In this document: positions 44,799-64,000 of the stretch, one piece after another
How the letters are laid out: each line of letters opens with the position of its first letter
How positions within the stretch are numbered: the first letter of the stretch is position 1
Source: Streptomyces sp. NBC_01439
Lineage (GTDB): Bacteria; Actinomycetota; Actinomycetes; Streptomycetales; Streptomycetaceae
Length of the DNA: 64,000 nucleotides
Assembly: GCF_036227605.1 (NCBI RefSeq)
Contig: NZ_CP109487.1
Location: forward strand, 4,717,501 to 4,781,500
Reading direction: 5' to 3'
Notes under the pieces: generated by a model
What the model was told of the DNA's origin: nothing
Seen by the model: the letters and a program-made list of their open reading frames with translations, nothing else
Databases searched by the model: none
Program-made: the position numbers and the translations under genes

Positions 44799-45152
44799 CC
44801 TGGGCTTCTGTGGGGTCGCCCAAGGCGAGGGGGCTGGTGTTCGGAGGATCCGTACGGGGATCAACCCTCCGTGCGCATGCTGCAATCCGTGCAGGCCGTA
44901 AGACACACAACAGGCCAAGCACCTACGAACCGGGATGCACGTCAGGCCCGGGGCGGTCCCTCCGCGAGGGGCCGAACGGCGGGGAGCGGGACGCCTTGAT
45001 TCGGGCGGGCGCTGGACGCCGGGCGTACGGGATCCAGACCACCGGACTCCGTGTTCCCGAGTACCCGAAGGAAGACAGCATGAGCAAGCACGTCCTGGCC
45101 CAGAACCAGTACGGCAAGGCCGAGAACCGCATCGTGAAGGTCACCCGCAAGG

Positions 45153-45197
45153 GCGCAGGGGGCACCTCCCAGACGGAGTCTGGGGGAGGCTCCTGGC
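45153..45197 (+). repeat. Palindromic DNA element inserted in frame in uricase
   Basis: CTCCCAGACGGAGTCTGGGG and its flanks form an imperfect palindrome. It encodes GAGGTSQTESGGGSW, which has no place in the uricase family between KVTRKG and HEIRDLNVSVAL. A related element at 62966-63011 encodes GAPGGSPRTESGGGA in an unrelated protein. Confidence 0.65.
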
Positions 45198-45674
45198 ACG
45201 AGATCCGCGACCTCAACGTCTCGGTCGCGCTCCGCGGCGAATTCCGCGACGTCCACCTCACCGGCGACAACGCCAACTGCCTGCCGACGGACACCACCAA
45301 GAACACGGTGTACGCCTTCGGCAAGGAGCACGGCATCGACTCTCCCGAGGCCTTCGGCATCCTGCTCGCCAAGCACTTCGTCTCCTCGCAGCAGCCGATC
45401 CGCGAGGCCCAGATCCGCATCGAGGAGTACGTGTGGGACCGCATCCCGGTCCCCACGCGCAAGGAGCAGCACTCCTTCGTCCGCAAGGGCCAGGAGGTGC
45501 GCACCGCGCAAATCACCTACAGCGAGACGACGGGCCTGCAGGTCATCTCGGGTCTGAAGGACCTGACGGTGATGAACTCGACCAATTCCGAGTTCCACGG
45601 CTACATCAAGGACAAGTACACGACCCTGCAGGAGGCGTACGACCGCATCCTGGCGACCAAGGTCACCGCGCGCT

Positions 45675-45706
45675 GGGCGCACTCGGCGCTGGGCGCACTC
45701 GGCGCT
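45675..45706 (+). repeat. 16-bp tandem duplication in uricase
   Basis: GGGCGCACTCGGCGCT is present twice in a row. In the restored single-copy sequence a 7-base direct repeat GCGCTGG flanks the 9 bases GCGCACTCG. Slippage between those repeats adds exactly 16 bases, which explains the duplication and the +1 frameshift. Confidence 0.9.
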
Positions 45707-46057
45707 GGCCGCCGACGAGGCCGGCTACGACTGGGACCAGGCCTACAAGAAGGTCCGCAAGAACCTGCTGGAAGCCTTCGCGGAGACCTACTCGTACTCG
45801 CTGCAGCAGACCCTGAACCAGATGGCCGAGCGGGTGCTCGACAACTGCGCCAAGGTCAACGAGGTGCGCCTGAACCTCCCCAACAAGCACCACTTCCTCG
45901 TCGACCTGGAGCCCTTCGGCCTCAAGAACGACAACGAGGTCTACTTCGCGGCGGACCGGATGTACGGCCTGATCGAGGGCACCATCCACCGCGACGGCGT
46001 ACAGCCGGTGATCGCGACGTCCGACTGGATCGTCGCCTGACGCACGGGTGAACGCCC

Positions 46058-46094
46058 GTTCGGCCCGGACCGCGTCGCGGGGTCCGGGCCGAAC
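46058..46094. terminator. Terminator after uricase
   Basis: A perfect 14-base stem (GTTCGGCCCGGACC and complement) with a 9-base loop lies between the uricase end and the convergent phosphatase-like gene. Confidence 0.8.
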
Positions 46095-46105
46095 CGTTTC
46101 GCCCG

Positions 46106-46576
46106 CTACGGCCCGTCCTGCTCCTGCTCGTCCTGCGGTTGCCCGACCAGCAGGTTCCAGCGCCCCGACCGCCCGGTGAGGGTGGTCACCGACTCCGGCC
46201 GCACGTCGAGCCGCCAGAAGGCCGCCGCGGGCAACTCCAGGGCGTGCACCACGGCCGCCCGGACGACCGCCTGCTCGACCACCACCCGGTGCGTGCCCTC
46301 GGCCAGGCCCGCCAGCTCCGCCCCGACGCGCGCGATCAGAGCGTCCACGGACTCCCCGCCCGGTGGCGCGTACGCGGGATCCGACAGCCAGGCGTGCACG
46401 GCCGCCGGGTCCCGGCCCGCCACCTCGTCCAGGGTGCGCCCGGCCCACTCACCCGTGGCCAGACCGCGCAGCCCCTCGTGGCCCGGGCAGGGCCGGGCGT
46501 GACCGAAGCGGCCCTGGCGGGCGGCTGCGTCCAGCGGGAAGGTGATGAGCCGAACTCGTACCAACGGGGTCTTCAT
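46106..46576 (-). CDS. Histidine-phosphatase-family protein lacking catalytic His
   Basis: 156 residues. The fold of the phosphoglycerate-mutase/histidine-phosphatase family can be traced (RVRLITFPLDAAARQGRFG, GEWAGRTLDEVAGRDPAAV, GGESVDALIARVGAEL, HRVVVEQAVVRAAVVHALEL). The RHG motif reads LITFPLDAA and the second His region reads VVEQAVVRAA, so neither catalytic His is in place. Relatives in Streptomyces also vary here. It is divergent from the B12-riboswitch cbtB-cbtA operon. Confidence 0.82.
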   Translation of the reverse strand: MKTPLVRVRLITFPLDAAARQGRFGHARPCPGHEGLRGLATGEWAGRTLDEVAGRDPAAVHAWLSDPAYAPPGGESVDALIARVGAELAGLAEGTHRVVVEQAVVRAAVVHALELPAAAFWRLDVRPESVTTLTGRSGRWNLLVGQPQDEQEQDGP

Positions 46577-46618
46577 AAGGGGAGCGTAAGCGCGGTACGG
46601 TCACAAATGGTTCAATTG

Positions 46619-46722
46619 ACTTACGACGGAACGACGGAAGCACGGTGAGAATCCGGCACGGTCGCGCCACTGTGAAGCCTCCCGGAGGGGAGGAAAGTCA
46701 GACCCGCCACCGTCGTAGCGAG
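46619..46722 (+). promoter_or_regulatory. Cobalamin (B12) riboswitch
   Basis: The conserved blocks occur in order: GAAGCACGGTGAGAATCCGG (46637-46656), GCCACTGTGAAGCC (46666-46679, the B12 box region) and GGAAAGTCAGACCC (46692-46705). A closing stem pairs TTACGACGG (46621-46629) with CCGTCGTAG (46710-46718). It ends about 40 bases before the cbtB start, in position to control translation or termination of the cobalt-uptake operon when adenosyl- or methylcobalamin is plentiful. Confidence 0.92.
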
Positions 46723-46763
46723 CACCACTGACCGGGACGCGTGTTCCCTCTGGAGGTTCTGCC

Positions 46764-46979
46764 ATGGCCCACTCCGCCGTGCCCACGACGAACTCACCCG
46801 CCGTCGCCCCCATCTCGCTCTCCGCGCTGGCCCCCTGGGCCGTCTTCGTCGGCGTCCTCATGCTCGTCCTGCTGTACTTCGTCGGCGCCGAGCAGGGCGC
46901 CACCTCGGTCTTCGAAGGGGAGACCATCCACGAGTGGCTGCACGACGGCCGCCACCTGCTCGGTTTCCCCTGCCACTGA
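46764..46979 (+). CDS. cbtB: CbtB, cobalt transporter subunit
   Basis: 71 residues. One transmembrane helix (APWAVFVGVLMLVLLYFVG, about 22-40) followed by a short tail HEWLHDGRHLLGFPCH with several His and a Cys near the end that may bind metal, as known for CbtB. GGAGG lies before the ATG. The riboswitch upstream and cbtA downstream confirm the call. Confidence 0.93.
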   Translation: MAHSAVPTTNSPAVAPISLSALAPWAVFVGVLMLVLLYFVGAEQGATSVFEGETIHEWLHDGRHLLGFPCH

Positions 46980-47021
46980 TTCCCCTGCCAGTGACCGACG
47001 TCTCAGCAAGGGAACAGAACG

Positions 47022-47789
47022 ATGACTTCCCCTTCTCCGGGTGGGGTCTCCCCCCGCACCCTGCTCGTCCGCGGCATGCTCGCCGGCCTGCTGGCCGGCG
47101 TGGCCGCCTTCCTCGTCGCCTACCTCCTCGGTGAGTCCAAGGTGGACGCGGCGATCGCCATCGAGGAAGCCGCCGCGGCCGGTCACGACCACGGTGAGGA
47201 CGCGCCGGTCAGCCGGGCCCTCCAGGCCACGGCCGGGCTCGGTACCGGCGTCCTGCTCTACGCGGTGGCGCTCGGCGGCATCGCCGCGCTCGTCTACTGC
47301 TTCGCCCTGGGCCGCATCGGCCGCTTCGGCTCGCGGGCCACGGCGGCACTGGTCACCGGGGGTCTGTACGTCACCGTGACGCTGGTGCCGTTCTTCAAGT
47401 ACCCCGCCAATCCCCCCGCCGTGGGCGATCCCGGGACCGCCGCCCGGCGGACCGCCCTCTACCTCCTGATGATCGCCCTGAGCGTGCTGCTGGCGGCCGG
47501 GGCGCTGATCCTCGGGCGACGGCTCGCACCGAAGCTCGGCAACTGGAACGCGTCGGTCGTCGCCGGCGCGGCCTTCGCCCTGGCCATCGGCCTCTCCTAC
47601 GCCCTGCTGCCCGGCATCAACGAGGTCCCTCCGGGCTTCCCCGCCGCGCTGATCTGGGAGTTCCGCCTCGCGTCCCTGGCCATCCAGACGGCACTGTGGA
47701 CGACTTTCGGCCTGGCTTTCGGTTTTCTAGCCGAACGAGCCCTTGTGCCCGCCCCCGGACCCAAGGAGGCTGTGCAGCCGACGAGTTGA
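47022..47789 (+). CDS. cbtA: CbtA, cobalt transporter
   Basis: 255 residues with five to six hydrophobic helices: TLLVRGMLAGLLAGVAAFLV at the start, LGTGVLLYAVALGGIAALVY, TAALVTGGLYVTVTLVPFFK. The loops contain the CbtA features AGHDHGEDAPVSRALQATAG (a His-rich metal site) and KYPANPPAVGDP. It imports Co2+ for cobalamin synthesis together with CbtB. It starts 42 bases after cbtB. Confidence 0.94.
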   Translation: MTSPSPGGVSPRTLLVRGMLAGLLAGVAAFLVAYLLGESKVDAAIAIEEAAAAGHDHGEDAPVSRALQATAGLGTGVLLYAVALGGIAALVYCFALGRIGRFGSRATAALVTGGLYVTVTLVPFFKYPANPPAVGDPGTAARRTALYLLMIALSVLLAAGALILGRRLAPKLGNWNASVVAGAAFALAIGLSYALLPGINEVPPGFPAALIWEFRLASLAIQTALWTTFGLAFGFLAERALVPAPGPKEAVQPTS

Positions 47790-47810
47790 GCACGAGGGGG
47801 CCGGTAGTAC

Positions 47811-48059
47811 ATGGCGACGGCGATCAGGCAATGGCGGGGCTGGACGGGTGCGGCCCCGTTCTGGCTGAACTCGCTCCTGCTGCTCCTGGCCCCCTGCTGC
47901 GCCGTGACGCTCTTCGGCCAGATCGGGATCATCGCCGCGCTGGCCGCACTGGGCGGCCTGGCCCGCCACCTCTGGTACGGCGACTACGGCCACCCGGCCG
48001 TACACCTGGCCGGGGCGCTGATGGGGGCGGGCGCGGCCGCCCTCGTCATGTGTGGTTAG
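47811..48059 (+). CDS. Small membrane protein in the B12-regulated operon
   Basis: 82 residues starting 21 bases after cbtA, behind GAGGGGG. Two or three hydrophobic segments (FWLNSLLLLLAPCCAVTLFG, IIAALAALGGLARHL, AVHLAGALMGAGAAALVM). A Cys-Cys pair in the first helix (APCCAV) is notable. I recognise no family. Its place suggests a helper of cobalt uptake or handling. Confidence 0.75.
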   Translation: MATAIRQWRGWTGAAPFWLNSLLLLLAPCCAVTLFGQIGIIAALAALGGLARHLWYGDYGHPAVHLAGALMGAGAAALVMCG

Positions 48060-48271
48060 GAGCGTTCGGCCCCTCACCCGTTCGGGCGCATGGGCACCAC
48101 CCCGGGCATCCGGCCGACGGACCCTTCGCGAACTGCGAAGACTCCCCGATCGGGCGACGACACGCCCGTGACGCCACGTCAGTCCACCGTGTTGCACGGA
48201 GTACCGACGGGCAGAGGAGGTGTCCACTGCTCACATGACCCGGCCGCCCGAGCCGGACTGGAGGGAATCCC

Positions 48272-48871
48272 ATGCCCCGCGCCAAGTGGGCCGTCGCTTC
48301 GCTGACGGTGGTCCTGCTGTCCACCGGCATCGCGGCGTTGCAACGGACCGAGGGTGCCCGGCCCGCGGCCGTGACCACCGACGACGCGCTGCCCTCCCGG
48401 GCGTTGGGGCTGTCGGGCCACCGCCGTCTGGTGCGGGAGCTGGAACAGTCCGGCGAACACGCCGCCGGCACGGGGACCCGGTCCCCGAGCGCCGCCCACG
48501 GGCCGCTGCGCACGGTCACCGGACCCCTGCGGGCCGCCCGCCCGCTGCGGCTGCGCATTCCGAGCCTGGACGTGGACGTACCGCTGACCGGCGGCCGTAC
48601 GGAGTACGCCTGGGACACCGGGAGTCCGGCACCGGGTACGGCCGGGACCGCCGTGGTGACGGTGGCGGGGCTTCGCCTCGACGAGTTGCGGCGGGGCCGG
48701 ACCATCGAGATCCCCCGGGCGGACAGTCGTACGGCCGTGTTCACCATCGTACGGATCTCACCGGGCAGGGCCTCCGGCCACGAGGGCGCGCACGGCCGGG
48801 CCCAACTGCGGGTGGTCGGCGGCGAGACCGCCGTACTGGCCCGGCTGACCGGGCAGCGCCGCACTCGCTGA
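48272..48871 (+). CDS. Class-F sortase-like protein without catalytic His and Cys
   Basis: 199 residues. N-terminal membrane segment or signal (AVASLTVVLLSTGIAAL), then a sortase-like domain from about residue 95: LRLRIPSLDVDVPL, DTGSPAPGTAGTAVVTVAGL, ELRRGRTIEIPRADSRTAVF, QLRVVGGETAVLARL. In class F sortases the third block has AGH (catalytic His) and the last has TCGG (catalytic Cys); here these read VAGL and VVGG. The fold seems kept and the active site lost. Role unknown. Confidence 0.78.
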   Translation: MPRAKWAVASLTVVLLSTGIAALQRTEGARPAAVTTDDALPSRALGLSGHRRLVRELEQSGEHAAGTGTRSPSAAHGPLRTVTGPLRAARPLRLRIPSLDVDVPLTGGRTEYAWDTGSPAPGTAGTAVVTVAGLRLDELRRGRTIEIPRADSRTAVFTIVRISPGRASGHEGAHGRAQLRVVGGETAVLARLTGQRRTR

Positions 48872-48964
48872 GACCACCGGATCGGGCGACGTCCTGTCAG
48901 CCGAGGGGGGTGTCTTCGTCCCCCGGTCGGGGGCTTCTCGGGGTCCACCCGGGAGTCGTCCGGC

Positions 48965-49375
48965 GTGGCGGGGCAGACCCCTCGCATGAGCGGCGGGAGG
49001 CACCACGCGCGTTCGGCACTGGCCAGGGCTCTGACCGTGGCCTGTGTCGTGCTGCTGTGCGTCTTCGGAGCCGGTCCGGCCGGCGCCGAAGCGGCCGAGT
49101 TCCGCCCCGCGACGTCCTCCGCGCCCGTCGCGCCGGGCGCCCCGGCAGAGTCTCCCGAACCCGGCGAGGGCCAGTCCGATCCGGCTCCGGCCCCTGATCC
49201 CGAAGCGCGGGCGGCCGTACGGACGGTCACGCGCGGGCTGTCCGGCGTACGGCGGGGACCGCTCGCGGTGTTTCACGTGGAACATGCGGTTGCCCCGGCG
49301 TGCGGGCCCGCCGCGGAGGCGGCCGAACCGGCCCTGTCCCGGCGGGCGGTGCGGAGCGTGGTGCTGCGCTGCTGA
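48965..49375 (+). CDS. Small secreted protein carrying a parS-like site in its gene
   Basis: 136 residues from GTG 48965 (ATG 48986 is the alternative). Signal peptide or membrane anchor (ALARALTVACVVLLCVFGAG, about 17-37), then an Ala/Pro/Glu-rich spacer and a basic C-terminal half. The segment PLAVFHVEHAV is encoded by TTTCACGTGGAACA, a near-match to the ParB-binding site parS, which explains the odd FHVEH peptide. No family recognised; it could be largely a carrier of the site. Confidence 0.6.
   Translation: MAGQTPRMSGGRHHARSALARALTVACVVLLCVFGAGPAGAEAAEFRPATSSAPVAPGAPAESPEPGEGQSDPAPAPDPEARAAVRTVTRGLSGVRRGPLAVFHVEHAVAPACGPAAEAAEPALSRRAVRSVVLRC
49269..49284. other. parS-like ParB-binding site
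   Basis: TGTTTCACGTGGAACA differs from the consensus TGTTTCACGTGAAACA by one base. It is inside a coding region. Streptomyces chromosomes carry about twenty such sites, mostly in the region around oriC. Confidence 0.7.
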
Positions 49376-49432
49376 GCGGACCGAGGTCCGAACGCAGCCC
49401 CCACACCCCCTTGAGCACCGTGAGGTTCCGCC

Positions 49433-49633
49433 ATGCCCATCGACCCGTACGCCGCACTGAACGCCATGCTCCGCGCCGAGGTCACCCGGTTCTCCCCGCC
49501 GGTCCGGCAGACCGAGCCGGCCGCGTCGCCGAAGACCACGGCCACGGCCACGGCCACGGCCACCGCCACGGCCACGGCCGTCGAGGCCGAGAGCGAACCT
49601 CAGCCGACCGCCCCGGCGGATCCGGCCGCGTAG
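49433..49633 (+). CDS. Small protein with Thr-Ala repeats
   Basis: 66 residues. MPIDPYAALNAMLRAEVTRF is a coherent N-terminal helix; the second half has eight Thr-Ala pairs encoded by GCCACG hexamers (49535-49580), then an acidic Pro-rich tail. GAGG lies about 8 bases before the ATG. I believe similar short proteins exist in other Streptomyces, but function is unknown. Confidence 0.6.
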   Translation: MPIDPYAALNAMLRAEVTRFSPPVRQTEPAASPKTTATATATATATATAVEAESEPQPTAPADPAA

Positions 49634-49642
49634 GAACCGCGC

Positions 49643-49689
49643 GGACGCGCCAGGAGCGCCGGGGGGCAACCGGCGCTCCCGGCGCGTCC
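49643..49689. terminator. Large terminator hairpin
   Basis: A 20-base stem with a single mismatch (49643-49662 with 49670-49689) and a 7-base loop lies between the small Thr-Ala-repeat gene and the convergent membrane-protein gene. Confidence 0.8.
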
Positions 49690-49718
49690 CGGCCGTGCGA
49701 CCGGCTCGGTCCTCGTGC

Positions 49719-50126
49719 TCAGTCCTCGTGCGTGTAGTAGCGGTAGAACGCCGCCAGACCGACGCCCGCGGCCACGGCGAGGCCCACCACCACGGCCTTG
49801 AGGATCGACTGGTCGGTGAGGCTGTGCAGGTAGCCCACGGCGATGCCGCCGAAGGCTCCGTACGCGGCGGCGTGGACCTCGCGCATCATCCGGGGACCGA
49901 CCCTGGCCAGGCCGAACATGATCCCTGCGAAGACCACGCCGCACAGGATCCCGAAGAAGACGTTGGCCGTGGTCACCGGACCCGCCTGGCGTTCGATGAA
50001 AGCGGCCCAGAATCCGTAGACGAGTCCGAGGAGCACGGGCCCGACGAACGCGCTCTTGTGCAGGTGGGTCTTGCTCGCCGTCTGCCGGCGCTGCCGCCCG
50101 AAGGCGCTGGGTGCCGCATGTGCCAT
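49719..50126 (-). CDS. Conserved membrane protein, four helices
   Basis: 135 residues from ATG 50126. Hydrophobic segments: AFVGPVLLGLVYGFWAAFI, TANVFFGILCGVVFAGIMFG, AAAYGAFGGIAVGYLHSL, AVVVGLAVAAGVGLAAFY. The N-terminus is basic (SAFGRQRRQTASKTHLHKS). The family is common in Streptomyces with no assigned role. Confidence 0.85.
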   Translation of the reverse strand: MAHAAPSAFGRQRRQTASKTHLHKSAFVGPVLLGLVYGFWAAFIERQAGPVTTANVFFGILCGVVFAGIMFGLARVGPRMMREVHAAAYGAFGGIAVGYLHSLTDQSILKAVVVGLAVAAGVGLAAFYRYYTHED

Positions 50127-50192
50127 GACGGGCTCCTCTCTCCCATCATCCAGGGCACACCCGCCGCCCCCGGGCGGCAAGTGGATCAGCGG

Positions 50193-50591
50193 TCAGGGCG
50201 TGCGCACGGCCACCGCGTCGATCTCGAAGAGCATGTCGGGCAGGGCCAGCGCGGCAACGCCGATCAGGGTCTGGGCGGGCAGTTCGGTCCCCCAGGTGGC
50301 GTGCAGCTGCTTCAGCAGGACCTCGAGCTTCTGCTGGTCGTGGCCGACGACGTAGGTGCCGATGCGGACCACGTCAAGGGGGCCGAGGCCGACGGCCGCG
50401 AGGGCGGTACGGAGGTTGGCGAAGGCCCGCTCCACCTGGTCGGCGAAGTCCCCGGAGACGACGTGGCCGTGCTCGTCGGAGCCGTACTGCCCGGCTATGA
50501 ACACCTGCTCGCCGGGTGCGGAGACGATGTGGCTGTAGCCGTATCCGGTCGGGGTGTGGAGTCCTGCCGGGTTGATGATGCTGCGCGTCAT
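50193..50591 (-). CDS. RidA-family (YjgF/Rid) protein
   Basis: 132 residues. Family marks: GYSHIVSAPGEQVFIAGQYG, QVERAFANLRTALAAVGLG, VVRIGTYVVGH, PAQTLIGVAALALPDMLFEI. The Arg that binds the imine substrate in RidA proper (usually near PxRT/S) is replaced here by PAQT, so it may belong to a Rid subgroup with another function. It lies downstream of an Rrf2 gene in the same direction. Confidence 0.92.
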   Translation of the reverse strand: MTRSIINPAGLHTPTGYGYSHIVSAPGEQVFIAGQYGSDEHGHVVSGDFADQVERAFANLRTALAAVGLGPLDVVRIGTYVVGHDQQKLEVLLKQLHATWGTELPAQTLIGVAALALPDMLFEIDAVAVRTP

Positions 50592-50660
50592 GCCGAGCTC
50601 CCTTTTTCCGTTTCCGTTTCCGTACGTGCGGTGTGGTGCTCCGTGTGCTCCGTGGTGCGG

Positions 50661-51155
50661 CTACCGTGCGGCGAGCCAGGCACGGAGCCGTTCGGGGGCC
50701 TCGGGGGCCTGCCGTTCGGCCTGTTGCCGGATCTCGTCGAGGTTCTGGGCCGCCAGTGCCCTGCGCCAGGCCAGTTCGGCCCGTGTCATGGCGTGCGCGA
50801 TGGCGCAGTCGGCGGCGCCCTTCTCCGGGGCGGAGTCCGCCGGTTCGCCGGCGCCGGGCCCCTGCTGCCGGATCTCCGCGCACCGGAAGGCCTGCTCGGG
50901 CCCTTCGACGGCGGCGACCACGTCCATGAGCGAGATGGCGTCGAGCGGGCGGGCCAGCCGGAAGCCGCCCCGGGGGCCGGGGGTGGAGGTGAGGACGCCC
51001 GCCCGAGCCAGTGCCTGGAGCTGCTTGGTGAGGTAGGCCGCGGGCAGGTCGTGCCAGGCGGCGAGACGCGCCGCCGACACGGCACGGTCCGGGCCGCTCC
51101 AGGCCAGGTTGACGCAGCTGTGCAGCGCCCACTCGACGCCCTCGCTCATCTTCAT
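50661..51155 (-). CDS. Rrf2-family transcriptional regulator
   Basis: 164 residues. Winged helix: VSAARLAAWHDLPAAYLTKQ followed by ALARAGVLTSTPGPRGGFRL, the typical Rrf2 wing. Three Cys follow (CVNLAWSG early, FRCAEIRQQ, ADCAIAHAM), so redox or metal sensing is possible but they do not match the Fe-S IscR spacing. Its operator, a perfect palindrome, is 5 bases upstream of the start. It probably controls itself and the RidA gene behind it. Confidence 0.9.
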   Translation of the reverse strand: MKMSEGVEWALHSCVNLAWSGPDRAVSAARLAAWHDLPAAYLTKQLQALARAGVLTSTPGPRGGFRLARPLDAISLMDVVAAVEGPEQAFRCAEIRQQGPGAGEPADSAPEKGAADCAIAHAMTRAELAWRRALAAQNLDEIRQQAERQAPEAPERLRAWLAAR

Positions 51156-51159
51156 AATC

Positions 51160-51176
51160 TGGATATTAAATATCCA
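51160..51176. promoter_or_regulatory. Rrf2 operator palindrome
   Basis: TGGATATT-A-AATATCCA is a perfect 17-base palindrome in an otherwise GC-rich region. Placed between the Rrf2 start and the divergent membrane-protein gene, it likely overlaps the Rrf2 promoter. Confidence 0.75.
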
Positions 51177-51274
51177 GGATTATCGGCGCAAGGGTGCCGC
51201 TCCGTCCGACGGCCCACCACCCGCCCGCAGCAACACCGCTCGCGCCCGGCCCCGCGTCCGCATTCCCTGGTGAC

Positions 51275-52102
51275 GTGCGCACCATCCTGTCGACGGTACT
51301 CATCGTGCTCGTGGCCCTTCTGGTGCCCGCGAGCGCCGTCGCGTACTGGGCCGACCGCGAACTGGGCAACGCCGACCGGTACACCGCCGCCATGTCCCCC
51401 CTCGCCGAGAACCCGAAGGTGCAGGAGGTCGTCGTCACCCAGGTCACCCGCGCCCTCGCCGGCCAGATCGACGCGGGCCCCTTCCAGATCGGCGTGGACA
51501 CCCTGCTCGGCGAGGCCCTGCACTCCTTCGCCGGCACCCCCGCCTACCGGACCGCCTGGGACGCGGCCAACCGCGCCGCCCACGTCGCGTTCCTCGACGC
51601 GCTCACCACCGGCCACGGCGACGCCCTCACCATCGACCTCGCCCCCGTCATCGCGCAGGTCAGGGGCGACCTCGTCGCCGACGAGGTGCCCTTCGCCGAC
51701 CGCATCCCGGTGACCCACCTGACCGTGAAGGTCATGGAGTACGACAACCTCGCCGCTCTCCGGAAGGGCTTCCACATGCTCCAGGTCGCCGGCGTCTGGC
51801 TCCCCGTACTGACCCTGGTCCTGGCCGCGGCGGCCATCGCCGTCGCCGTCCACCGACGGCGCGCCGTCCTGGCCACCGGAGTGGGGCTCGCGGTCGGGGC
51901 CGGACTGCTGTGGCTCGCGGTGGACGTGTGCCGCCGGCTCACCCTGGACGACCTGCCCGCCGACATCGACCGGCCCGCCGCCGGGGCGGTGTACGACGCC
52001 CTCACGGCGTACCTGCGCACGACCGCCTGGGTGGTGCTGGCGATCGGGCTCGGCGCCGCACTCGCCGCATGGGTGATGGGCCGACTACGCCGCACCCCAT
52101 AA
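51275..52102 (+). CDS. Membrane protein of unknown function (three to four helices)
   Basis: 275 residues from GTG 51275. N-terminal helix (ILSTVLIVLVALLVPASAVA), a 150-residue extracytoplasmic helical region (YTAAMSPLAENPKVQEVVVT), and C-terminal helices (AGVWLPVLTLVLAAAAIAVA, LATGVGLAVGAGLLWLAV, WVVLAIGLGAALAAWVMG). The pattern recurs in actinobacterial integral membrane proteins with no known role. The FUSC-type gene follows 82 bases later. Confidence 0.87.
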   Translation: MRTILSTVLIVLVALLVPASAVAYWADRELGNADRYTAAMSPLAENPKVQEVVVTQVTRALAGQIDAGPFQIGVDTLLGEALHSFAGTPAYRTAWDAANRAAHVAFLDALTTGHGDALTIDLAPVIAQVRGDLVADEVPFADRIPVTHLTVKVMEYDNLAALRKGFHMLQVAGVWLPVLTLVLAAAAIAVAVHRRRAVLATGVGLAVGAGLLWLAVDVCRRLTLDDLPADIDRPAAGAVYDALTAYLRTTAWVVLAIGLGAALAAWVMGRLRRTP

Positions 52103-52184
52103 GCTCGGAAGGTACCAACACGCGCAGAACCATGTAGAAGATCACAGAAGCACCGATTCGCGAGCGGCGGGCACGGAAGCGGGA

Positions 52185-54179: not shown

Positions 54180-54261
54180 CCCGCCGCCGCGCCCGGGAAC
54201 GGTGTCCCCCGAATGGGTCGGCTCCCGGGCCGGGCGGGGGCGGACGGGGCAGCATCGGAGC

Positions 54262-54963
54262 ATGCACCGCGTCCCCGCCGTGATGGTCCTCGCCGTACTC
54301 CTGGTGGGGTGCGCCGATGTGGAGGGACTGCAGAGCGAGGGCGACCTCGGCACGGTGCACGCCCCGAAGAGCCTGTGGAAGGACATCCGCCCCGACCCGC
54401 CCGCCGCCGACCAGAGGCCGGGCACGGCCGCCGTGGTCCCGGGGCTCCCCAAGGTGACCGATCTGAGCATGCGCGGAGTGGACGCTCTGTCCGTCGTGCG
54501 CGCCGACATCGCCTCCGCCGCCGAGCAGGACGGCGGGACCGGCCGGCTCGTCGACCCGCGCGCCGTCCAGCGGCTCGCGCTCTGCACACAGGCTGTGGAC
54601 GGCGGCCCCGACTGCCCGGTGCGCCCCGCGGTCCTGCACGACCTGACGGGCAACGGCCGGGAAGAGCTCATCACCGCCCTGGACGTCGACGGCCGGGTCA
54701 GCGAGCTGCGCGTCTACACCGTCCAGGACGACGGGAGCATCGCCCGGATCCTGTCCCGGCGCGCGGTGCTGGAGGGTGTGGAGGTGGCCGCCGAGCACCT
54801 GGCGGTCCGCGAGCCCACGACCAACCCCGACCACGTCGCCGTCTTCGACTACGTGTGGGACCCGAAGGCCGGGATCATGAACCTGTCCCAGCTCACCCTC
54901 GACGACTGCCCGGGACGCACCCAGGACCCGACGAACGGGGACGGGGCGCGATGCGCGCGCTGA
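54262..54963 (+). CDS. Lipoprotein paired with a sensor kinase
   Basis: 233 residues. Signal and lipobox VMVLAVLLVGCADVEG (Cys about 17), then a soluble domain with a calcium-loop-like sequence LHDLTGNGREELITALDVD and three further Cys (LCTQ, DCPV, DDCPGR). The next gene, a histidine kinase, overlaps it by 13 bases. The pairing recalls CseA-CseC of the S. coelicolor SigE system, in which a lipoprotein tunes a kinase, but no sigE or response-regulator gene is here. Confidence 0.85.
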   Translation: MHRVPAVMVLAVLLVGCADVEGLQSEGDLGTVHAPKSLWKDIRPDPPAADQRPGTAAVVPGLPKVTDLSMRGVDALSVVRADIASAAEQDGGTGRLVDPRAVQRLALCTQAVDGGPDCPVRPAVLHDLTGNGREELITALDVDGRVSELRVYTVQDDGSIARILSRRAVLEGVEVAAEHLAVREPTTNPDHVAVFDYVWDPKAGIMNLSQLTLDDCPGRTQDPTNGDGARCAR

Positions 54964-56234: not shown

Positions 56235-56280
56235 GCGAATTGGGCAGCTTGGGTGCGTTGATCCGCGGGGACGCCCGAGA

Positions 56281-56304
56281 GGCGTGTTTCACGTGAAACA
56301 CGCC
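56281..56304. other. Perfect parS site
   Basis: TGTTTCACGTGAAACA at 56285-56300 is the exact parS consensus; four more bases on each side extend the palindrome to 24 bases. It lies between the kinase gene and the convergent PhoX gene, 7 kb from the other parS-like site. Confidence 0.92.
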
Positions 56305-56324
56305 CCTCGGGTCAACTGGACCGA

Positions 56325-58412
56325 TCAGACACCGATGTTGCGGCCGTCCTTGCGCCAGACGGACACGACCGCCGGGCGGACGATCTTGCCGGGGCCGTCG
56401 GGCCACACCGACTGCGGCTTCTCGACGGACGCGCCGTCGATCTCGCCCGGGTGCTGGACGGAGACCAGGACGCGCTTGTCCTGGATGAGCGGGCCGCAGG
56501 TCTCGGCGCCGCGCGGAACGGTCAGGAACTGCTTCAGCTCACCGCGGCGCTCACCGGCCGTCGCGACGCCGAACAGGCCGTCGTGGGAGCCGAGCTGGTT
56601 GCCGTCCGTGGAGATCCACAGGTTGCCGTGCGGGTCGAAGGCCACGTTGTCCGGGCACGAGATGGGGCTGACCTTGTCCTTGGGGAAGCCCGCGAAGTAG
56701 GTGGCTGGGTCGTTCGGGTCACCGGCGACCAGGAAGAGCCGCCAGGCGAAACCGTCGCCCGCCGGGTCGTCGAAGTTCTCGGCGAGCTCCAGGATCTGGC
56801 CGTGCTTGTTCAGGTTGCGCGGGTTGGCCTCGGTGGCGCCTTCCTTGCCCGGCTTGCCGCGGTCGGTGTTGTTGGTCAGTGCGATGTAGACGCGACCGGT
56901 GCGCGGGGAGGGCTCGACGTCCTCCGGACGGTCCATCTTCGTGGCGCCCACCTTGTCGGCGGCCTGCCGCGTGAAGACGTACACCTCCTCGGCGGTCATG
57001 CCCTCGACGTGCGACACGTTGCCGGTGGCCAACTTGATCCACACGCCGGAGCCGTCGAACTCGCCGTCGGAGGGCAGCTTGCCCGTGCCGTCGAACTCGG
57101 CGGCCGGGGAGTCACCGGTGAGCTTGGCGACGTAGAGGGTGCCCTCGTCGAGCAGCGTGAGGTTGTGCTCCTTCGCGGCGCGCGAATTGCCCTTCTTCAT
57201 CCGCTTCGACGAGACGAACTTGTAGAAGTAGTCGAAGCGCTCGTCGTCGCCCATGTAGACGACCGGACGGCCGTCCTCGGTCAGGCGGGGCTGCGCGGCC
57301 TCGTGCTTGAAGCGGCCGAGCGCGGTGCGCTTGCGCGGCACCGAGTTCGGGTCGTACGGGTCCAGCTCGACGACCCAGCCGAAGCGGTGCGACTCGTTGG
57401 GCTCCTGCGCCACGTCGAAGCGCTTGTCGAACCGCTCCCACTTGCGCTCGGTGGCGCCGGCGGTCACGCCGTAACGCTTCAGGCGGGCGGCCTGGGTGGG
57501 CTCGGTGACCTGGCCGGCGTTGCCGAAGTACTGGTTGAAGTTCTCCTCGCCGTGGAGGGTGGTGCCCCACGGGGTGGTGCCGCCGGCGCAGTTGTTGAGC
57601 GTGCCGAGCACCTTGGTGCCGGTGGCGTCGACGGAGGTCTTCAGCAGGCTGCTGCCCGCGGCCGGACCCGTCAGCTTGAACTCGCTGGTGGCGGTCAGTC
57701 GGCGGTTGAGCTGGTGGCGGCTGATCGCGGTCAGCTTGCCGCTGCGGTGGTCCTCCTGGACGGCGACCACGGACAGGCCGTGCGCGGCCCAGGCGATCTC
57801 GACCTGCTCGAGGGTCGGGTTGGCCGGGTCGTACGCCTTGAACATGAGGTTCTCGTCCGTGTACTCGTGGTTGGCCACGAGCAGCTGCTGGCGCTCGTAG
57901 TCGCCGCCGAGCGGGAGGAGGCTCAGGAAGTCGTTGTTGTAGCCGAACTGACCGGCCTGCGCGGCGGCGGTCTGCTTGTCGGCGTTGAAGCCAGGGGCGC
58001 CCTTGACGATCGGGTCGCCCCAGCGGATCACCACGTTCTGCTCGTGGCCCTCGGGAACGGTGACCTTGTCGTCGGTGTTCGGCGCGACGGCCTTGAAGCG
58101 CAAGCCCCGGGCGGCCTCGCCGCCCTTGCCCGCGGCGGCCGCGGCGTCATCGGCCGCGGGGGTGGCGTTGGCGGTCTGCCCCGGGCCGCCGAACGCCACG
58201 GCGGAACCGGCCGCGGTGGCGACCGTCACGACGGCGGCGGAGCGCAGCATCGCGCGGCGGGAGTAGGCACGGGCTATGACGTCACCGACGTACTCGTTGT
58301 CGCTGGTGTTCGGCACCTCGTGGAAGCAGGCGTCGCCACAGCGGTAACGACAGGTGAGAGCGGACCGGCCGCTGCCATGCGGGTTGCCGATGAACGGCAG
58401 GAGCTTGCGCAC
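56325..58412 (-). CDS. PhoX-type secreted alkaline phosphatase (DUF839)
   Basis: 695 residues from GTG 58412, 5 bases after GGAGGA. The N-terminus contains CRYRCGDACFHEVPN and the Tat signal AYSRRAMLRSAAVVTVATAA at about 48-67. The rest matches DUF839/PhoX: EGHEQNVVIRWGDP, LVANHEYTDENLM, NNCAGGTTPWGTTLHGEENF, WVVELDPYDPNSVPRKRTAL, KMDRPEDVEPSPRTGRVYIA, CPDNVAFDPHGNLWISTDGN. It cleaves phosphate esters outside the cell with Fe/Ca cofactors. A PHO box about 90 bases upstream suggests induction by phosphate starvation through PhoP. Confidence 0.93.
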   Translation of the reverse strand: MRKLLPFIGNPHGSGRSALTCRYRCGDACFHEVPNTSDNEYVGDVIARAYSRRAMLRSAAVVTVATAAGSAVAFGGPGQTANATPAADDAAAAAGKGGEAARGLRFKAVAPNTDDKVTVPEGHEQNVVIRWGDPIVKGAPGFNADKQTAAAQAGQFGYNNDFLSLLPLGGDYERQQLLVANHEYTDENLMFKAYDPANPTLEQVEIAWAAHGLSVVAVQEDHRSGKLTAISRHQLNRRLTATSEFKLTGPAAGSSLLKTSVDATGTKVLGTLNNCAGGTTPWGTTLHGEENFNQYFGNAGQVTEPTQAARLKRYGVTAGATERKWERFDKRFDVAQEPNESHRFGWVVELDPYDPNSVPRKRTALGRFKHEAAQPRLTEDGRPVVYMGDDERFDYFYKFVSSKRMKKGNSRAAKEHNLTLLDEGTLYVAKLTGDSPAAEFDGTGKLPSDGEFDGSGVWIKLATGNVSHVEGMTAEEVYVFTRQAADKVGATKMDRPEDVEPSPRTGRVYIALTNNTDRGKPGKEGATEANPRNLNKHGQILELAENFDDPAGDGFAWRLFLVAGDPNDPATYFAGFPKDKVSPISCPDNVAFDPHGNLWISTDGNQLGSHDGLFGVATAGERRGELKQFLTVPRGAETCGPLIQDKRVLVSVQHPGEIDGASVEKPQSVWPDGPGKIVRPAVVSVWRKDGRNIGV

Positions 58413-58503
58413 GAGTGTCCTCCGAGTAGCTGCGTGGGCGCCGACAACGTGTCGGTACGATCCAGCCGCGACGCTAGGCCCGGGTTGCGCCGAAGCGGCG
58501 GCG

Positions 58504-58525
58504 CGGGGATGAACGCTCGGTGAAC
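58504..58525 (-). promoter_or_regulatory. PHO box (PhoP-binding direct repeats)
   Basis: Read on the minus strand it contains two 11-base direct repeat units, GTTCACCGAGC then GTTCATCCCCG, matching the Streptomyces PHO unit (GTTCA followed by C/T-rich bases). It lies upstream of the phosphatase gene in the right orientation. A further single unit, GTTCACGGAGC, is on the plus strand at 58545-58555. The rest of the 294-base gap shows no gene. Confidence 0.75.
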
Positions 58526-58706
58526 CCGGCACGTCGGAGCGGCAGTTCACGGAGCGTGTGCGGGTGGGTGGGTGCCGGGCGCCACGAAAGGCGCCCCTGC
58601 CGAAGATCCACCCCAGCGGCCGATAACCTTACGTGTCCACTCTGGGCAGGGATCATCCGCGCAGCACGGACAAATGACGCACGCACACATGCGAAAGGCC
58701 TGGCCC

Positions 58707-60587
58707 ATGGGTATTCGGAGCTTGTTGCGCAAGGTATTCGGACGGTCCGCGGAATCCGTTCCGGAAACTACGGACACCCCTTCGGCCGCTGTCCCGAACC
58801 AGGCGGAACGGACCCCTCTGGACGTCGCCGCCGAACTGGTGGCGGCGTCCTTCGACAACCCCACGGTTCCGCCGCAGTCCGCCCCGCGCGACCGTGAACC
58901 GGGCACGGTCCTCACGGCCCCCGCCCAGGCGGCGGACCCCACGGTCCCGGAAGCCCGCCGCCCGTCGCCTCCGGCGGTCCAGCCGACCGCCGTTGCCGCG
59001 GAGCAGCCCGAAGCCGAAGCCGAGCCGGCCGCCGCCGATGCGGGGCCCGAGCCCGCCGAGGCCACCGCGCCGCAGGCGCAAGAGCCGGCCGCCGCCGATG
59101 CGGACCAGCCCGAGGCCGAGGCGCCGCAGGCACAGGCCGAGCCCGAGACCGAGGCCGAGCCGGCTGCTGCCGCCGAAGCGGAGCCCGCGGCCGCCGCCGA
59201 GGCCGAGCCCGAGACCACCCATGCTGCGGAGCAGCCCGAGGCGGATGCGCCGCAGGCGCAGACCGAGCCGGCCACCGCCGAACCCACCACGCCGCAGGCC
59301 GAGGCTGCCGCCTCTGCGGAGCAGCCCGAGGCCACCGCGCCGGAGGCGCAAGAGCCGGTCGCCGCTACCGAGCAGCCGGAGACCGAGGCGCCGCAGGCGC
59401 AGTCCGAGCCCGAGGCCGATCCGGCTGCCGCCGAGGCAGAGCCCGAGACCGCCCCCGCTGCGGAGCAGGCCCAGGCGGAGCCCGAAACCGCACCCGAGGC
59501 ACAGGAGCCGGCCGCCGCCGAGGCAGACACCGACGCCGCGGACCAGCCCGAGGCCGAAGCGCCGCAGGCGGACGCGCAGGCCGAGCCGGCCGCCGCCGAG
59601 GCCACCGCGCCGCAGGCGCAGGAGCCGGCCACCGCCGCAGAGCAGCCCGAGGCAGACGCGCCGCAGGCCCAAGCCGAGGCCCCGGCCACCGCGCCGCAGG
59701 CGCAGGCCGAGCCCGAGGCCGAAGCGCAGGCCGAGCCGGCCGCCGCCGAAGCGCACCAGCCCGAGGCCGAAGCGCCGCAGGCAGACGCGCCGCAGGCAGA
59801 CGCGGAGCCCGAAACCGCACCCGAGGCACAAGAGCCGGTCGCCGCCGAAGTCACCGCGCCCGAGGCGGACACCGATGCGGCGGAGCAGCCCGAGGCCGAA
59901 GCGCCGCAGGCACAGGCAGAGGCCGGCGTCGCTGCGAACACGGCCGCCGTCGTGCGGCGCCGGGCTCCTGAGGTCGCCGGCGCGTACAAGGCCGCCGGGC
60001 AGGTGCTCCGGGGCAAGGGGAAGACCGGGGCGCGGGCCAAGGTGTACCTCGTGCTGGACCGGTCCGGTTCGATGCGCGGGTTCTACAAGGACGGCAGCGC
60101 CCAGCACCTCGCCGACCACGCCCTCGCCCTCGCCGCGCACCTCGACGACGCGGCGACCGTGCACACCGTGTTCTTCTCCACGGAGCTGGACGGCACCGCC
60201 GACCTGACCCTCGACGGCCACGACGCCTCCTGGGTCGAGACCCGTCACGCCGAGCTCGGCCGGATGGGTCGCACCAGCTACCACGTGGCCGTCGAGGCCG
60301 TCCTGGAGCGCTACCAGAAGGACGGCGGCGAGGGCCCGGCCCTGGTCGTCTTCCAGACCGACGGCGCGCCCGACAACCGGCAGCCCGCCCGCCAGGCACT
60401 GGCCGACGCCGCCACCGCGGCTCCGGGCGTCCACTGGCAGTTCGTGGCCTTCGGCGACCACGACGCCAAGGCCTTCGACTTCCTGCGCAAGCTGGACGCC
60501 GAGAACGCCGGCTTCTTCCACGCCGGCCCCGCCCCCACCGAGCTGACCTCCGCCGCCCTGGTCAAGGGCATCCTGGAGCGGTTCTAG
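58707..60587 (+). CDS. vWA (TerF-like) protein with long Glu/Ala/Gln/Pro repeat region
   Basis: 626 residues from ATG 58707, 8 bases after AAAGG. The N-terminus [20 protein letters not shown] is followed from about residue 90 to 410 by a low-complexity repeat of units such as [11 protein letters not shown] and AEPAAAEA. The C-terminal vWA domain (about 445-626) has the MIDAS motif [30 protein letters not shown], and [10 protein letters not shown]. This vWA is of the type found in TerF/tellurite-resistance proteins. There is no signal peptide. The acidic repeat may be a flexible spacer. A strong terminator follows. Confidence 0.88.
58978..59935 (+). repeat. Coding repeat region (Glu-Ala-Gln-Pro units)
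   Basis: About 320 codons of imperfect repeats such as GAGCAGCCCGAGGCCGA and GCGCCGCAGGCGCA, in several longer blocks that are nearly identical to each other. The length is likely to vary between strains through recombination. Confidence 0.85.
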
Positions 60588-60620
60588 TACCGGCAGTACG
60601 AGCAGTACGGGCACGACACG

Positions 60621-60661
60621 AAGGCGGCGCCCCCCTCCGGCAAGGAGGGGGGCGCCGCCTT
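60621..60661. terminator. Strong terminator between the vWA gene and aspS
   Basis: A perfect 18-base stem (60621-60638 with 60644-60661) with loop GGCAA lies between two convergent genes, with T residues just after it in the plus direction. Confidence 0.9.
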
Positions 60662-60683
60662 CGGCGTATCAGCGGACCGGGAG

Positions 60684-62507
60684 TCAGCCCCGCGGGGAAC
60701 CGGCGTCCGGGGCGACCGCGTCGGAGACCGGCCGCTCCGCCGCCTTCGTCTCGACCGGCTTGCGCAGCGCGATGTTCAGCTCGCGCAGACGGGCCTCCTC
60801 CAGCACCGTCGGCGCGCCCATCATCAGGTCCTGCGCGTTGCCGTTCAGCGGGAAGGCGATCGTCTCGCGGATGTTCGGCTCGTCGGCCAGCAGCATCACG
60901 ATGCGGTCCACGCCCGGGGCGATGCCACCGTGCGGCGGGGCGCCCAGGCGGAACGCGCGGAGCATGCCCGCGAACTCGCGCTCGACGGTCTCGGCCTCGT
61001 AACCGGCGATCTCGAAGGCCTTCAGCATGACCTCGGGCTCGTGGTTGCGGATGGCGCCGGAGGACAGCTCGATGCCGTTGCAGACGATGTCGTACTGCCA
61101 GGCCAGGATGTCCAGCGGGTCCTTCTCCAGCAGGTCCTTCATCCCGCCCTGCGGCATGGAGAAGGGGTTGTGGGAGAAGTCGATCTTGCCGGTCTCCTCG
61201 TCCTTCTCGTACATCGGGAAGTCGACGATCCAGCAGAACCGGAAGACGTTCTCCTCGAACTGGCCGGCACGCTTGGCCGCCTCGACGCGAACGCCCGACA
61301 TGATCTTGGAGACCTCGTCGAAGTCACCCGCGCCGAAGAACACGGCGTGGCCGGGGACCAGGCCCAGGCGCTCGGTGAGGACCTTGAGGTTCTCCTCGGT
61401 GAGGAACTTGGCGATCGGGCCGGTCAGCGAACCGTCCTCGCCCACGCGCACCCAGGCCAGGCCCTTGGCGCCCAGCGAGATCGCGTACTCGCCGAGGCCG
61501 TCGAAGAACTTGCGCGGCTGCGCGGCGGTGTCCGGGACGGCCAGGGCACGCACGTGCTTGCCGGCGAACGCCTTGAACTCCGAGGCCTCGAACACGTCGG
61601 TGATGTCGACGAGCTCCAGCTTGGCGCGCAGGTCGGGCTTGTCGTTGCCGTACTTGAGCATCGACTCGCGGAACGGGATCCGCGGGAACGGCGAGGTGAC
61701 CTCGCGGCCGCCGCCGAACTCGGTGAAGAGCTCGGTCATCAGGCGCTCGATCGGCTGGAAGACGTCCTCCTGCTCGACGAAGGACATCTCCACGTCGAGC
61801 TGGTAGAACTCGCCCGGCGAGCGGTCGGCGCGGGCGTCCTCGTCGCGGAAGCACGGCGCGATCTGGAAGTAGCGGTCGAAGCCGGAGATCATCAGCAGCT
61901 GCTTGAACTGCTGCGGCGCCTGCGGCAGGGCGTAGAACTTGCCCGGGTTCAGGCGGGACGGCACGACGAAGTCACGGGCGCCCTCGGGGGAGGTCGCGGT
62001 GAGGATCGGCGTCGCCATCTCGTTGAAGCCGAGGGCCACCATCTTCGAGCGGATCGACGCGATGACCGCCGAGCGCAGCATGATGTTGCGGTGCATGCGC
62101 TCGCGGCGCAGGTCGAGGAAGCGGTACTCCAGGCGCCGCTCCTCGTTCACCCCGTCGTCGGTGTTGATCGTGAACGGCAGCGGGGCGGCCGCGCCGAGCA
62201 CCTCGACCGCGGAGACCTCGATCTCGATCTCGCCGGTCGGCAGCTCCGGGTTGACGTTGTCGGCGCCGCGGGAGACGACCTTGCCGTCGATGCGGACGAC
62301 GGTCTCCTTCGTGACGCTGCTCAGCGCCTCGTTCGCCGCGGTGCCGGGCCGGGCGACCAGCTGCGTGATGCCGTAGTGGTCGCGCAGATCGATGAAGAGG
62401 ATGCCGCCCAGGTCTCGACGGTTGTGCAGCCAGCCGCTCAGCCGGACGTCGGCGGCGACGTCAGAAGCGCGGAGCTCGCCGCAGGTGTGGGACCTGTACC
62501 GATGCAT
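60684..62507 (-). CDS. aspS: Aspartyl-tRNA synthetase
   Basis: 607 residues, full bacterial length. OB-fold anticodon domain at the start ([40 protein letters not shown]), class II motif 2 ([17 protein letters not shown] after [10 protein letters not shown]), the GAD insertion domain in the middle (residues about 290-420), and motif 3 near the end ([20 protein letters not shown]). It charges tRNA with Asp; whether it also charges Asn tRNA cannot be told here. It is divergent from the SpoIIE-type gene, as in other Streptomyces near this locus. Confidence 0.98.
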
Positions 62508-62665
62508 CAGTCATCCAGTTCTACGCGATACCAGGGTGGATTCAACCGTCCCAAGGTTACCGTCCGGGAAGGTGACGGGTCGGGCACTCCCTCCAGCCTG
62601 CGCAAATGCGTCCGGTGGTCCGGGCGAACAGGCACGTACCGGATATGACCTGTAAACATGGCCGG

Positions 62666-64000
62666 GTGCGCACCGAGGACGTTCTGGCCGCCATTGCGAC
62701 CGGCCTGTGGCGATGGGACAACGCCTCCGGGACGGTCACCCTCGACGGTGAGGCCGCCCGGCTGCTCGGGCTGCCCGCCGAACCGGTGGTGCTGCCGGAG
62801 GCCGCCGTACGGTCCCGCTTCCACCCGGTGGACTGGAACGAGATCAACGGGATCGTGAACCTGGCCGTCGCCGAGGGCACCCTCGCCGAGGCCCGGCTGC
62901 GGATCATGGACGTCGACGGCCGGGTGCTGCGGACGGTGCGCAGCCGCACCAAACCGATGGCGAACGGGGCCCCAGGGGGGTCCCCCCGGACGGAGTCCGG
63001 GGGCGGGGCCACGGACTACGAGCTGATCGGAACCATCCAGGAGATCGCCGAGCCGCAGCCGGGCACCACGGCCGCCCACACCCCCATCACGGGGGACTGG
63101 CGGCGCTCCCGCGAGGCCTTCCTGCTGGACGCCGGGCGCGCGCTGGCGGAGGCGCGGTCCACGGCCGAGGTGCTGCGGGTCGCCGCCTCGCTGTCCATGC
63201 CCGGTTTCAGCCCGGACGGGCTGGCGGTCTTCGGCGTGGCCGGGGACCGGCTGTCGATCATCGGGCACCACGGGCACGATCCGGGGGGCGAGGGTCCGTT
63301 CTCCGACATGCCGCTGGAGACGAACTACCCGGCCGCGGAGGTCGTCCGTACCGGCCGGGCGATCTACCTGCCCACCCCCGAGGACTACAAGCGGCGCTTT
63401 CCGGCCGCCTGGCCGCTCGCCCAGCGCTTCGACCGGGTCTCCTGGGCCTTCCTACCGCTGATCGTGGCCGGTCGGACCATGGGCGCCTGGATGGCCGCCT
63501 TCAAGCACCCGGCGTCCTTCTCCCCCGACGAGCGGTCCGTCCTGACGACCGTGGCCCGGATGCTGGCCCAGGCGCTCCAGCGCGCCGTGGTGGCCGAATC
63601 CGAGCGGGAGCTCACCACCGGCCTACAGCGGTCGATGATGCCGCAGCTCGGCCCGGAGATCCCCGGCATGCGGATCGCGGCCCGCTACGTCCCGACGGGC
63701 GGCGGACTCCAGGTCGGCGGCGACTGGTACGACATGATCCCGCTGCCGTCGGGCAGGTTCGCGCTGGTCATCGGCGACGTGCAGGGCCACGACGTCCGGG
63801 CGGCCGGCCTGATGGGCCAGCTACGGATCGCCGTACGGGCGTACGCGTCCGAGGGCCACCGGCCGGACGCGGTGCTCTCGCGCGCCTCCCGCTTCCTGGC
63901 CGGGCTGTGCTCGTCGCCGGAGTCCGACCCTTACGGGGACGACGGCGGCCGGGACTCCGACTTCCTCAGCCCGCGCTTCGCGACCTGCCTGTACGTGGAG
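62666..64000 (+). CDS. PAS/GAF/SpoIIE-type protein phosphatase, 3' end outside the window
   Basis: 445 residues are visible, and the frame is still open at the right edge. A PAS-like part opens the protein (GLWRWDNASGTVTLDGEAAR). A GAF domain spans about 145-305 (VLRVAASLSMPGFSPDGLAV, SWAFLPLIVAGRTMGAWMAA). The PP2C/SpoIIE domain begins with LQRSMMPQLGPEIPGMRIAA and has VGGDWYDMIPLPSGRFALVI and GDVQGHDVRAAGLMGQLR, with the metal Asp residues present. GTG 62666 is chosen; ATG 62645 is in frame upstream. The protein contains the in-frame palindromic insert at 62966-63011. Such proteins dephosphorylate anti-anti-sigma factors. Confidence 0.92.
   Translation, partial: MRTEDVLAAIATGLWRWDNASGTVTLDGEAARLLGLPAEPVVLPEAAVRSRFHPVDWNEINGIVNLAVAEGTLAEARLRIMDVDGRVLRTVRSRTKPMANGAPGGSPRTESGGGATDYELIGTIQEIAEPQPGTTAAHTPITGDWRRSREAFLLDAGRALAEARSTAEVLRVAASLSMPGFSPDGLAVFGVAGDRLSIIGHHGHDPGGEGPFSDMPLETNYPAAEVVRTGRAIYLPTPEDYKRRFPAAWPLAQRFDRVSWAFLPLIVAGRTMGAWMAAFKHPASFSPDERSVLTTVARMLAQALQRAVVAESERELTTGLQRSMMPQLGPEIPGMRIAARYVPTGGGLQVGGDWYDMIPLPSGRFALVIGDVQGHDVRAAGLMGQLRIAVRAYASEGHRPDAVLSRASRFLAGLCSSPESDPYGDDGGRDSDFLSPRFATCLYVE
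62966..63011 (+). repeat. Palindromic DNA element inserted in frame in the SpoIIE-type gene
   Basis: CCCCCCGGACGGAGTCCGGG with G/C-rich flanks forms a strong palindrome. It encodes GAPGGSPRTESGGGA between the PAS and GAF parts. It matches the element in uricase (45153-45197) around GACGGAGTC and in the same reading phase. Confidence 0.65.

Follow-up and report, generated by a model that had tools for sequence, protein, structure and literature searches.

A very small dispersed hairpin of Streptomyces with clean insertion footprints in protein-coding genes

Two unrelated genes in a 64,000-nt stretch of the Streptomyces sp. NBC_01439 genome (G000:C1:4717501-4781500, hereafter the window), one for a uricase and the other for a putative SpoIIE-type protein, each carry a short palindrome that is read in frame, and the question raised by this locus is how it came to be in both. 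The genome (G000; other genomes and loci are given by G and L numbers) consists of one contig of 9.58 Mb with 71.8% G+C. Each insert is very probably a copy of a small hairpin element that is dispersed in Streptomyces and its close kin, resembles the repetitive extragenic palindromes (REPs) and is apparently non-autonomous and mobile. The hairpin element is real, widespread and very small, and has clean insertion footprints in genes.

The palindromes were first pointed out in a sequence-only reading of the window. Both are present, as 31-nt units (Table 1), the ranges given earlier taking in a few more flanking bases. The uricase unit is supported by its inverted repeat, its fold and a match to the covariance model described below (R1; G000:C1:4762656-4762691), and the SpoIIE-type unit by an inverted repeat, 100% identical over 9 nt, and a match to the same model (G000:C1:4780473-4780508). 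Translation of both genes, that of the uricase from its ATG at 45080, confirmed the common reading phase that had been proposed, which gives the peptide GG(T/S)xxTESGGG. Between KVTRKG and SWHEIRDL, the uricase insert replaces a turn of three residues, xDG.

Table 1. Features of the window (window positions) and five further insertion sites
Feature	Position	Strand	Remarks
Uricase (factor-independent urate hydroxylase) gene, hosts one copy	45080..46040	+	homologues with PF01014
31-nt hairpin unit GGGGGCACCTCCCAGACGGAGTCTGGGGGAG in the uricase gene	45158..45188	+	stem 45166-45174 with 45178-45186
SpoIIE-type gene (putative; name from the sequence-only reading), hosts second copy	62666..64000, past window end	+	frame open through insert
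31-nt hairpin unit GGGGGGTCCCCCCGGACGGAGTCCGGGGGCG in the SpoIIE-type gene	62975..63005	+	stem 62983-62991 with 62995-63003
Site L003			filled in G000, G012, G223; net gain 27 nt
Site L020			filled in G000, G012, G251; net gain 27 nt
Site L130			filled in G012; net gain 27 nt
Site L227			filled in G012; net gain 27 nt
Site L014			filled in G000, G251; net gain 27 nt

Comparison with orthologues shows that the peptide interrupts an otherwise continuous family sequence, as had been claimed, the insert being either cleanly present or cleanly absent at a given site. A search of 392 same-genus genomes for the uricase (E <= 1e-120) gave 47 with a match; three matches were full length (G000, G102 and G012), while the remaining 44 spanned 24-30 nt less. 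When 30 of these loci were aligned, the insert was found in three and not in 27, the net gain being 27 nt relative to most empty sites and 24 nt relative to four with a three-base longer turn. None of the 120 best uricase protein homologues has the insert within its first 50 residues (one is partial and without this region). The SpoIIE-type gene was matched in 173 of the 392 genomes at E <= 1e-60, and among 30 aligned orthologues the insert is present in two (G000 and G251) and absent from 28, with a net gain of 27 nt relative to the nearest empty sites. At five further sites, compared in five relatives, the net gain relative to empty sites was 27 nt throughout.

The 9-mer GACGGAGTC is not enriched in the window when taken alone (36 matches with at most one mismatch, 39.9 expected) and was dropped as a signal by itself. 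A longer hairpin pattern, with up to three mismatches, matched twice where 0.33 matches were expected, and since 6 of 100 shuffles also reach two, the window alone is only suggestive. Across the whole genome, the core with at most two mismatches gave 31 matches and the pattern read backwards two. The covariance model R1 was built from 30 copies and applied with strict filters to 37 genomes of Streptomyces and 24 of other families. It matched 36 of the 37 Streptomyces genomes, with 1 to 27 matches each (11 in G000), and none of the 24 others, the non-Streptomyces Streptomycetaceae lying outside this sample. A pattern of the outer arms with any tip of 6-30 nt was matched in 34 of the 37 and again in none of the 24, its backwards control giving one match across all 61 genomes. 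An exact scan of public genome contigs matched at least 120 stretches; the 80 listed are all from Streptomycetaceae (75 Streptomyces, three Actinacidiphila, one Streptacidiphilus and one Kitasatospora). Plasmid records gave seven matches, every one from Streptomyces, and the phage records searched gave none. The genome-wide search that the sequence-only reading had suggested finds further copies in the window's own genome, in relatives and in public contigs.

Aligned copies give the consensus tGGGGGTCCCCCCGGACGRAGTCYGGGGGAGg, with a unit of about 31 nt, TGGGGGTCCCCCCGGACGRAGTCYGGGGGAG; variant tips and a longer 5′ form exist. No Rfam family was matched by any of 15 loci. The stem has 9 bp with outer C:G pairs, the short form has a 3-nt loop, and longer tips form an inner stem. 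In a public set of 134 copies, retrieved by a pattern allowing all four combinations at one stem pair, A-T was found 59 times, C-G 74 times, A-G once and C-T never. Among the outer-arm matches listed, 35 distinct 39-nt relatives with free tips showed 21 double-sided changes against 5.9 in shuffles, none of 500 shuffles reaching their covariation score, and 20 hand-picked 39-nt relatives gave a similar result. Shared descent inflates this test as well as that on the public set. Changes in the stem are compensatory in two variable sets. One of four folded stretches, that of the uricase, clearly exceeded shuffled sequence in stability (z -4.0).

The genomic context was assessed with a simple gene finder of our own for 123 exact copies, none closer than 150 nt to the end of its stretch, in 120 public stretches (of the at least 120 matched). 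The copies comprise 31 in predicted genes (18 sense, 13 antisense), three across gene ends and 89 intergenic, 31 of the last between convergent genes; random positions in the same loci fell inside genes in 4726 of 6000 cases. By reading phase, the 18 sense copies are of the GVPPDGVWG type (14) or the GSPRTESGG type (four), with none in the third phase. A codon-position test on a second pool placed 31 of 103 copies in coding sequence, 24 sense and seven antisense, and the phases of the 24 were represented 15, eight and one times. Pfam searches with 10 of the 18 sense hosts revealed widely different families: Pyr_redox_2 (two), GNAT, PheT domains, ArsC, acyl-CoA dehydrogenase, ABC transporter, GFO/IDH/MocA, AMP-binding and DAO. 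The inserts may lie in turns or linkers. None of the six frames of the consensus unit contains a stop codon, so that an insert adds a peptide, such as GGSPRTESGG.

At all 14 short-form sites, the right end of the unit lies directly after an RCG of the empty site, which is GACG at seven. In 13 empty loci, RCG has a background of 6.6% and GACG one of 1.0%, and even if any of seven registers could be chosen freely, the probability of the RCG result would be about 1e-6. Target site duplication, a feature of miniature inverted-repeat transposable elements (MITEs), was not seen at the aligned sites; instead, about four target bases are replaced. Two long-form sites (L331 and L374) have an extra GAGCGAAGCGAGA-like 5′ part and gain 39 nt, and the empty site of L374 ends in ACG.

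All 15 coding sites (13 short-form and two long-form) have a net gain that is a multiple of three: 27, 24 or 39 nt. In G002, the hairpin also lies within an abundant repeat, AGCCC(G/C)TCCGGCG(A/T)TTGAGG, which occurs empty as well. The coding test, applied to ten of the 11 filled units of this repeat, classed none of them as coding; the net gains of the 11, which are possibly not independent of each other, were 26 nt (six units), 27 nt (three), 25 nt (one) and 29 nt (one). Because the commonest gain in this apparently non-coding repeat is 26 nt, frame keeping is not purely built in and was dropped as the whole account, and selection must filter the copies seen in genes. The coding gains are all divisible by three and those of the repeat mostly are not, which speaks for translation through the insert and selection on its length. 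The earlier proposal of a dispersed palindrome that invades genes in frame is supported by the comparison at the 15 coding sites, with the qualification, from the G002 repeat, that the element does not keep the frame by itself.

Mobility is suggested by the presence and absence of the hairpin at orthologous sites. In the mechanism proposed here, the hairpin would be, or would recently have been, a REP-like non-autonomous mobile element, and the target would set the orientation in which it is inserted. Its right end would be placed just after RCG, with GACG favoured (CGTC on the other strand) and a few target bases replaced. Copies with a net gain that is a multiple of three and with no stop would be tolerated in genes, adding about nine residues, and the TESGG phase would arise where the target is an in-frame GAC-Gxx (mostly Asp-Gly) codon pair.

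Several points weigh against this reading. Junctions were assigned by eye, with the 31-nt unit taken as fixed and the nearest or best-aligned empty sites used. A first target rule (GRCG, net gain 27 nt) was drafted on eight sites and then tried on six fresh short-form sites, found in a search of nine pieces with L399 and L417 left out of the comparison. GRCG was present at one of the six (pheT in G002) and a net gain of 27 nt at four (L335, L361, pheT in G002, and L397 relative to its shortest empty sites, the gain being 24 nt relative to others), while L317 and L351 gained 24 nt; RCG was present at all six, and the strict rule was dropped for this looser one. Some relatives (L462, L292 and L471) have no RCG at the site in question, and the empty site of the long-form L331 ends in CCG. 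Stem pair counts in the first 30 copies were not above those of shuffles, and the other three folded stretches were no more stable than shuffled sequence (z -0.3 to -1.2). A tree built from 473 nt 3′ of the insert in 24 uricases requires three changes to account for the three carriers, and strongly supported branches force at least two; the three inserts have the rarer ACCTCCC left arm in common. Since the carriers are not one clade, repeated insertion, recombination and loss are indistinguishable. Insertion was never observed as an event, and a search limited to the Y1 family identified no mobiliser.

This last search bears on an unlikely alternative, a true system of REPs and REP-associated tyrosine transposases (RAYTs), in which an IS200/IS605-type Y1 transposase cuts and inserts the single-stranded hairpin and recognises an adjacent tetranucleotide. 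It would explain the short hairpin of fixed polarity, the tetranucleotide-like target, the lack of target duplication and the intergenic preference, and Y1 transposases are present in four of the 20 genomes tested. PF01797 is, however, absent from the other 16, including G000, G002 (27 R1 matches), G004 (16), G036 (15) and G251, so that a Y1 transposase is not required in most carriers tested, and the target tetranucleotide is replaced instead of kept. It is also improbable that the hairpin spread through usefulness as part of an RNA (a terminator or stabiliser at gene ends), with the genic copies as by-products, an account compatible with mobility. The covarying stem and the 89 intergenic copies, with 31 of them between convergent genes, are in its favour, but it accounts for spread and not for arrival at RCG with fixed ends, and 31 of the 123 copies lie in genes, 13 of these antisense. 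An origin of the peptide by common ancestry in both proteins, or by local palindrome-forming replication errors at each site, has very little to recommend it: GC-rich palindromes form easily in DNA of 72% G+C, and the 9-mer core alone is not enriched, but the same sequence recurs at unrelated sites, and ancestry is contradicted by the empty orthologues and the uricase homologues without insert. Skipping of the insert in translation, as in the mitochondrial byp elements, which are of similar size and hairpin shape, is hardly credible, since skipping would free the length and the gains at coding sites, not those of the non-coding repeat, are all divisible by three; the consensus is moreover open in all frames.

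The mobile hairpin favoured here is a newly seen, very small Streptomyces variant of the coding palindromes known among REPs and Rickettsia palindromic elements (RPEs). The nearest class is that of the CGTC-tagged REPs (Di Nocera et al. 2013, PMC3733652), to which Neisseria dRS3 and Rickettsia RPE-4 and RPE-6 belong; they are said to be without a dedicated transposase and occur also inside genes. Like the Streptomyces element, they are dispersed hairpins of 20-40 bp (PMC3733652), mostly intergenic, often between convergent genes and in part within unrelated genes, with no dedicated Y1 transposase, and in both groups CGTC is involved. The CGTC-tagged REPs bear an unpaired CGTC (or TGTC, CCTC) tag at one end (PMC3733652), whereas in Streptomyces CGTC (on the other strand, GACG) belongs to the empty site as the favoured target and is replaced in filled copies; that end of filled copies reads CTCCCCC in reverse complement, with CCTC in many, and CGTC or CGYN stands in the empty site. 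The class further has an 8-9 bp stem with A:T as first and second pairs, a 4-5 nt loop, and mostly head-to-head dimers (PMC3733652), against the 9-bp stem with outer C:G pairs and the 3-nt loop of the short form in Streptomyces, where copies were treated singly here. The main text of that paper nowhere mentions Streptomyces or Actinobacteria.

RPEs of the RPE-1 type are likewise in-frame palindromes in unrelated genes that add a peptide (PMC10969869, PMC2635572). The likeness to them drawn in the sequence-only reading stands for in-frame insertion into unrelated protein genes, seen at the 15 coding sites against empty orthologues, and does not extend to membership, some defining features of the CGTC-tagged REPs being missing. 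RPEs are about 150 bp long (PMC10969869) against 31 nt here, and the two are likened by description, not by sequence. GTAG REPs and REPINs, with their RAYT transposases, are likewise short hairpins scattered through genomes, and their movement is believed to be brought about in trans (PMC3116915). They have a GTAG tag and a RAYT, whereas the Streptomyces consensus has no GTAG and Y1 is absent from most genomes tested, including that of the window. Cyanobacterial small dispersed repeats (SDR) and the GC clusters of yeast mitochondria are further examples of mobile hairpins of very small size, and they too occur nested within other repeats; their hosts and sequences are different.

In the accessible text of two stem-loop surveys, Streptomyces occurs once, in the reference list only (PMC1590033), or not at all (PMC2267715); that of PMC1525189 has one mention, for IS117, and that of a 2024 review of prokaryotic MITEs (PMC10969869) describes in-frame RPEs and leaves Streptomyces unmentioned. 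Searches for a Streptomyces palindromic repeat and for the sequence strings of the element in open-licence literature, which most subscription papers lie outside, gave no description, as judged by titles and the starts of abstracts. Coding palindromes are best known from Rickettsia, and Streptomyces is culturable and engineerable; filled and empty orthologues are plentiful, so that the target, footprint and frame filter of a tiny mobile hairpin are open to direct inspection. The element accounts for unusual peptides (GGSPRTESGG, MGVPPAEGWGR) in uricase, PheT, adenylation-like and ABC proteins, which bears on annotation and enzyme work, and the question of what moves CGTC-type REPs becomes testable. 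As a wider and, taken whole, tentative reading, the Streptomycetaceae may have a superfamily of hairpins, 30-50 nt long, in which the outer arms are constant and the covarying tips can be exchanged, and which are given polarity by a CGTC (GACG) target and inserted without a REP transposase. The same codon pair of uricase would then have been hit on more than one occasion. The CGTC tag seen in the REP/RPE superfamily would go back to the target site itself, and an activity yet to be discovered would mobilise CGTC REPs, dRS3 and RPEs alike.

Individual copies show further features. Two genomes have the element in pheT at different but nearby positions (L351 and L431), apparently through separate insertions. 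Four G036 copies (L250, L251, L257 and L258) lie directly before YRTGDL, a motif of adenylation-like proteins, and may reflect either repeated insertion or spread by gene duplication. Four G000 copies (L005, L013, L016 and L027) have a longer 3′ flank in common, which may mark a larger carrier element, and L013 is apparently within a larger element with inverted ends (CTAGTGCTGCGGCCGGAAAGG). L437 (G033) has the same outer arms with a longer tip, GCTCGAGCGAAGCCGAGAG, at the acyl-CoA dehydrogenase site where L397 is a short form. Many of the tips among the outer-arm matches listed give a total length of 30, 35, 39 or 42 nt.

The L130 site in G098 is 24 nt below the filled form and reads CCAGGGGGAG, likely a remnant after loss between two G runs. 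GGGGGAG without a hairpin at L283 (G098) and L442 (G025) may similarly be a remnant, produced by slippage between the element's two G runs. The uricase gene of the window has a 16-nt tandem duplication (45674-45705) that breaks the frame about 160 codons past the insert and is possibly an assembly error; the other two insert-carrying uricases have open frames of 314 aa each. A second uricase-like match in G000 lies at G000:C1:2293867-2294368.

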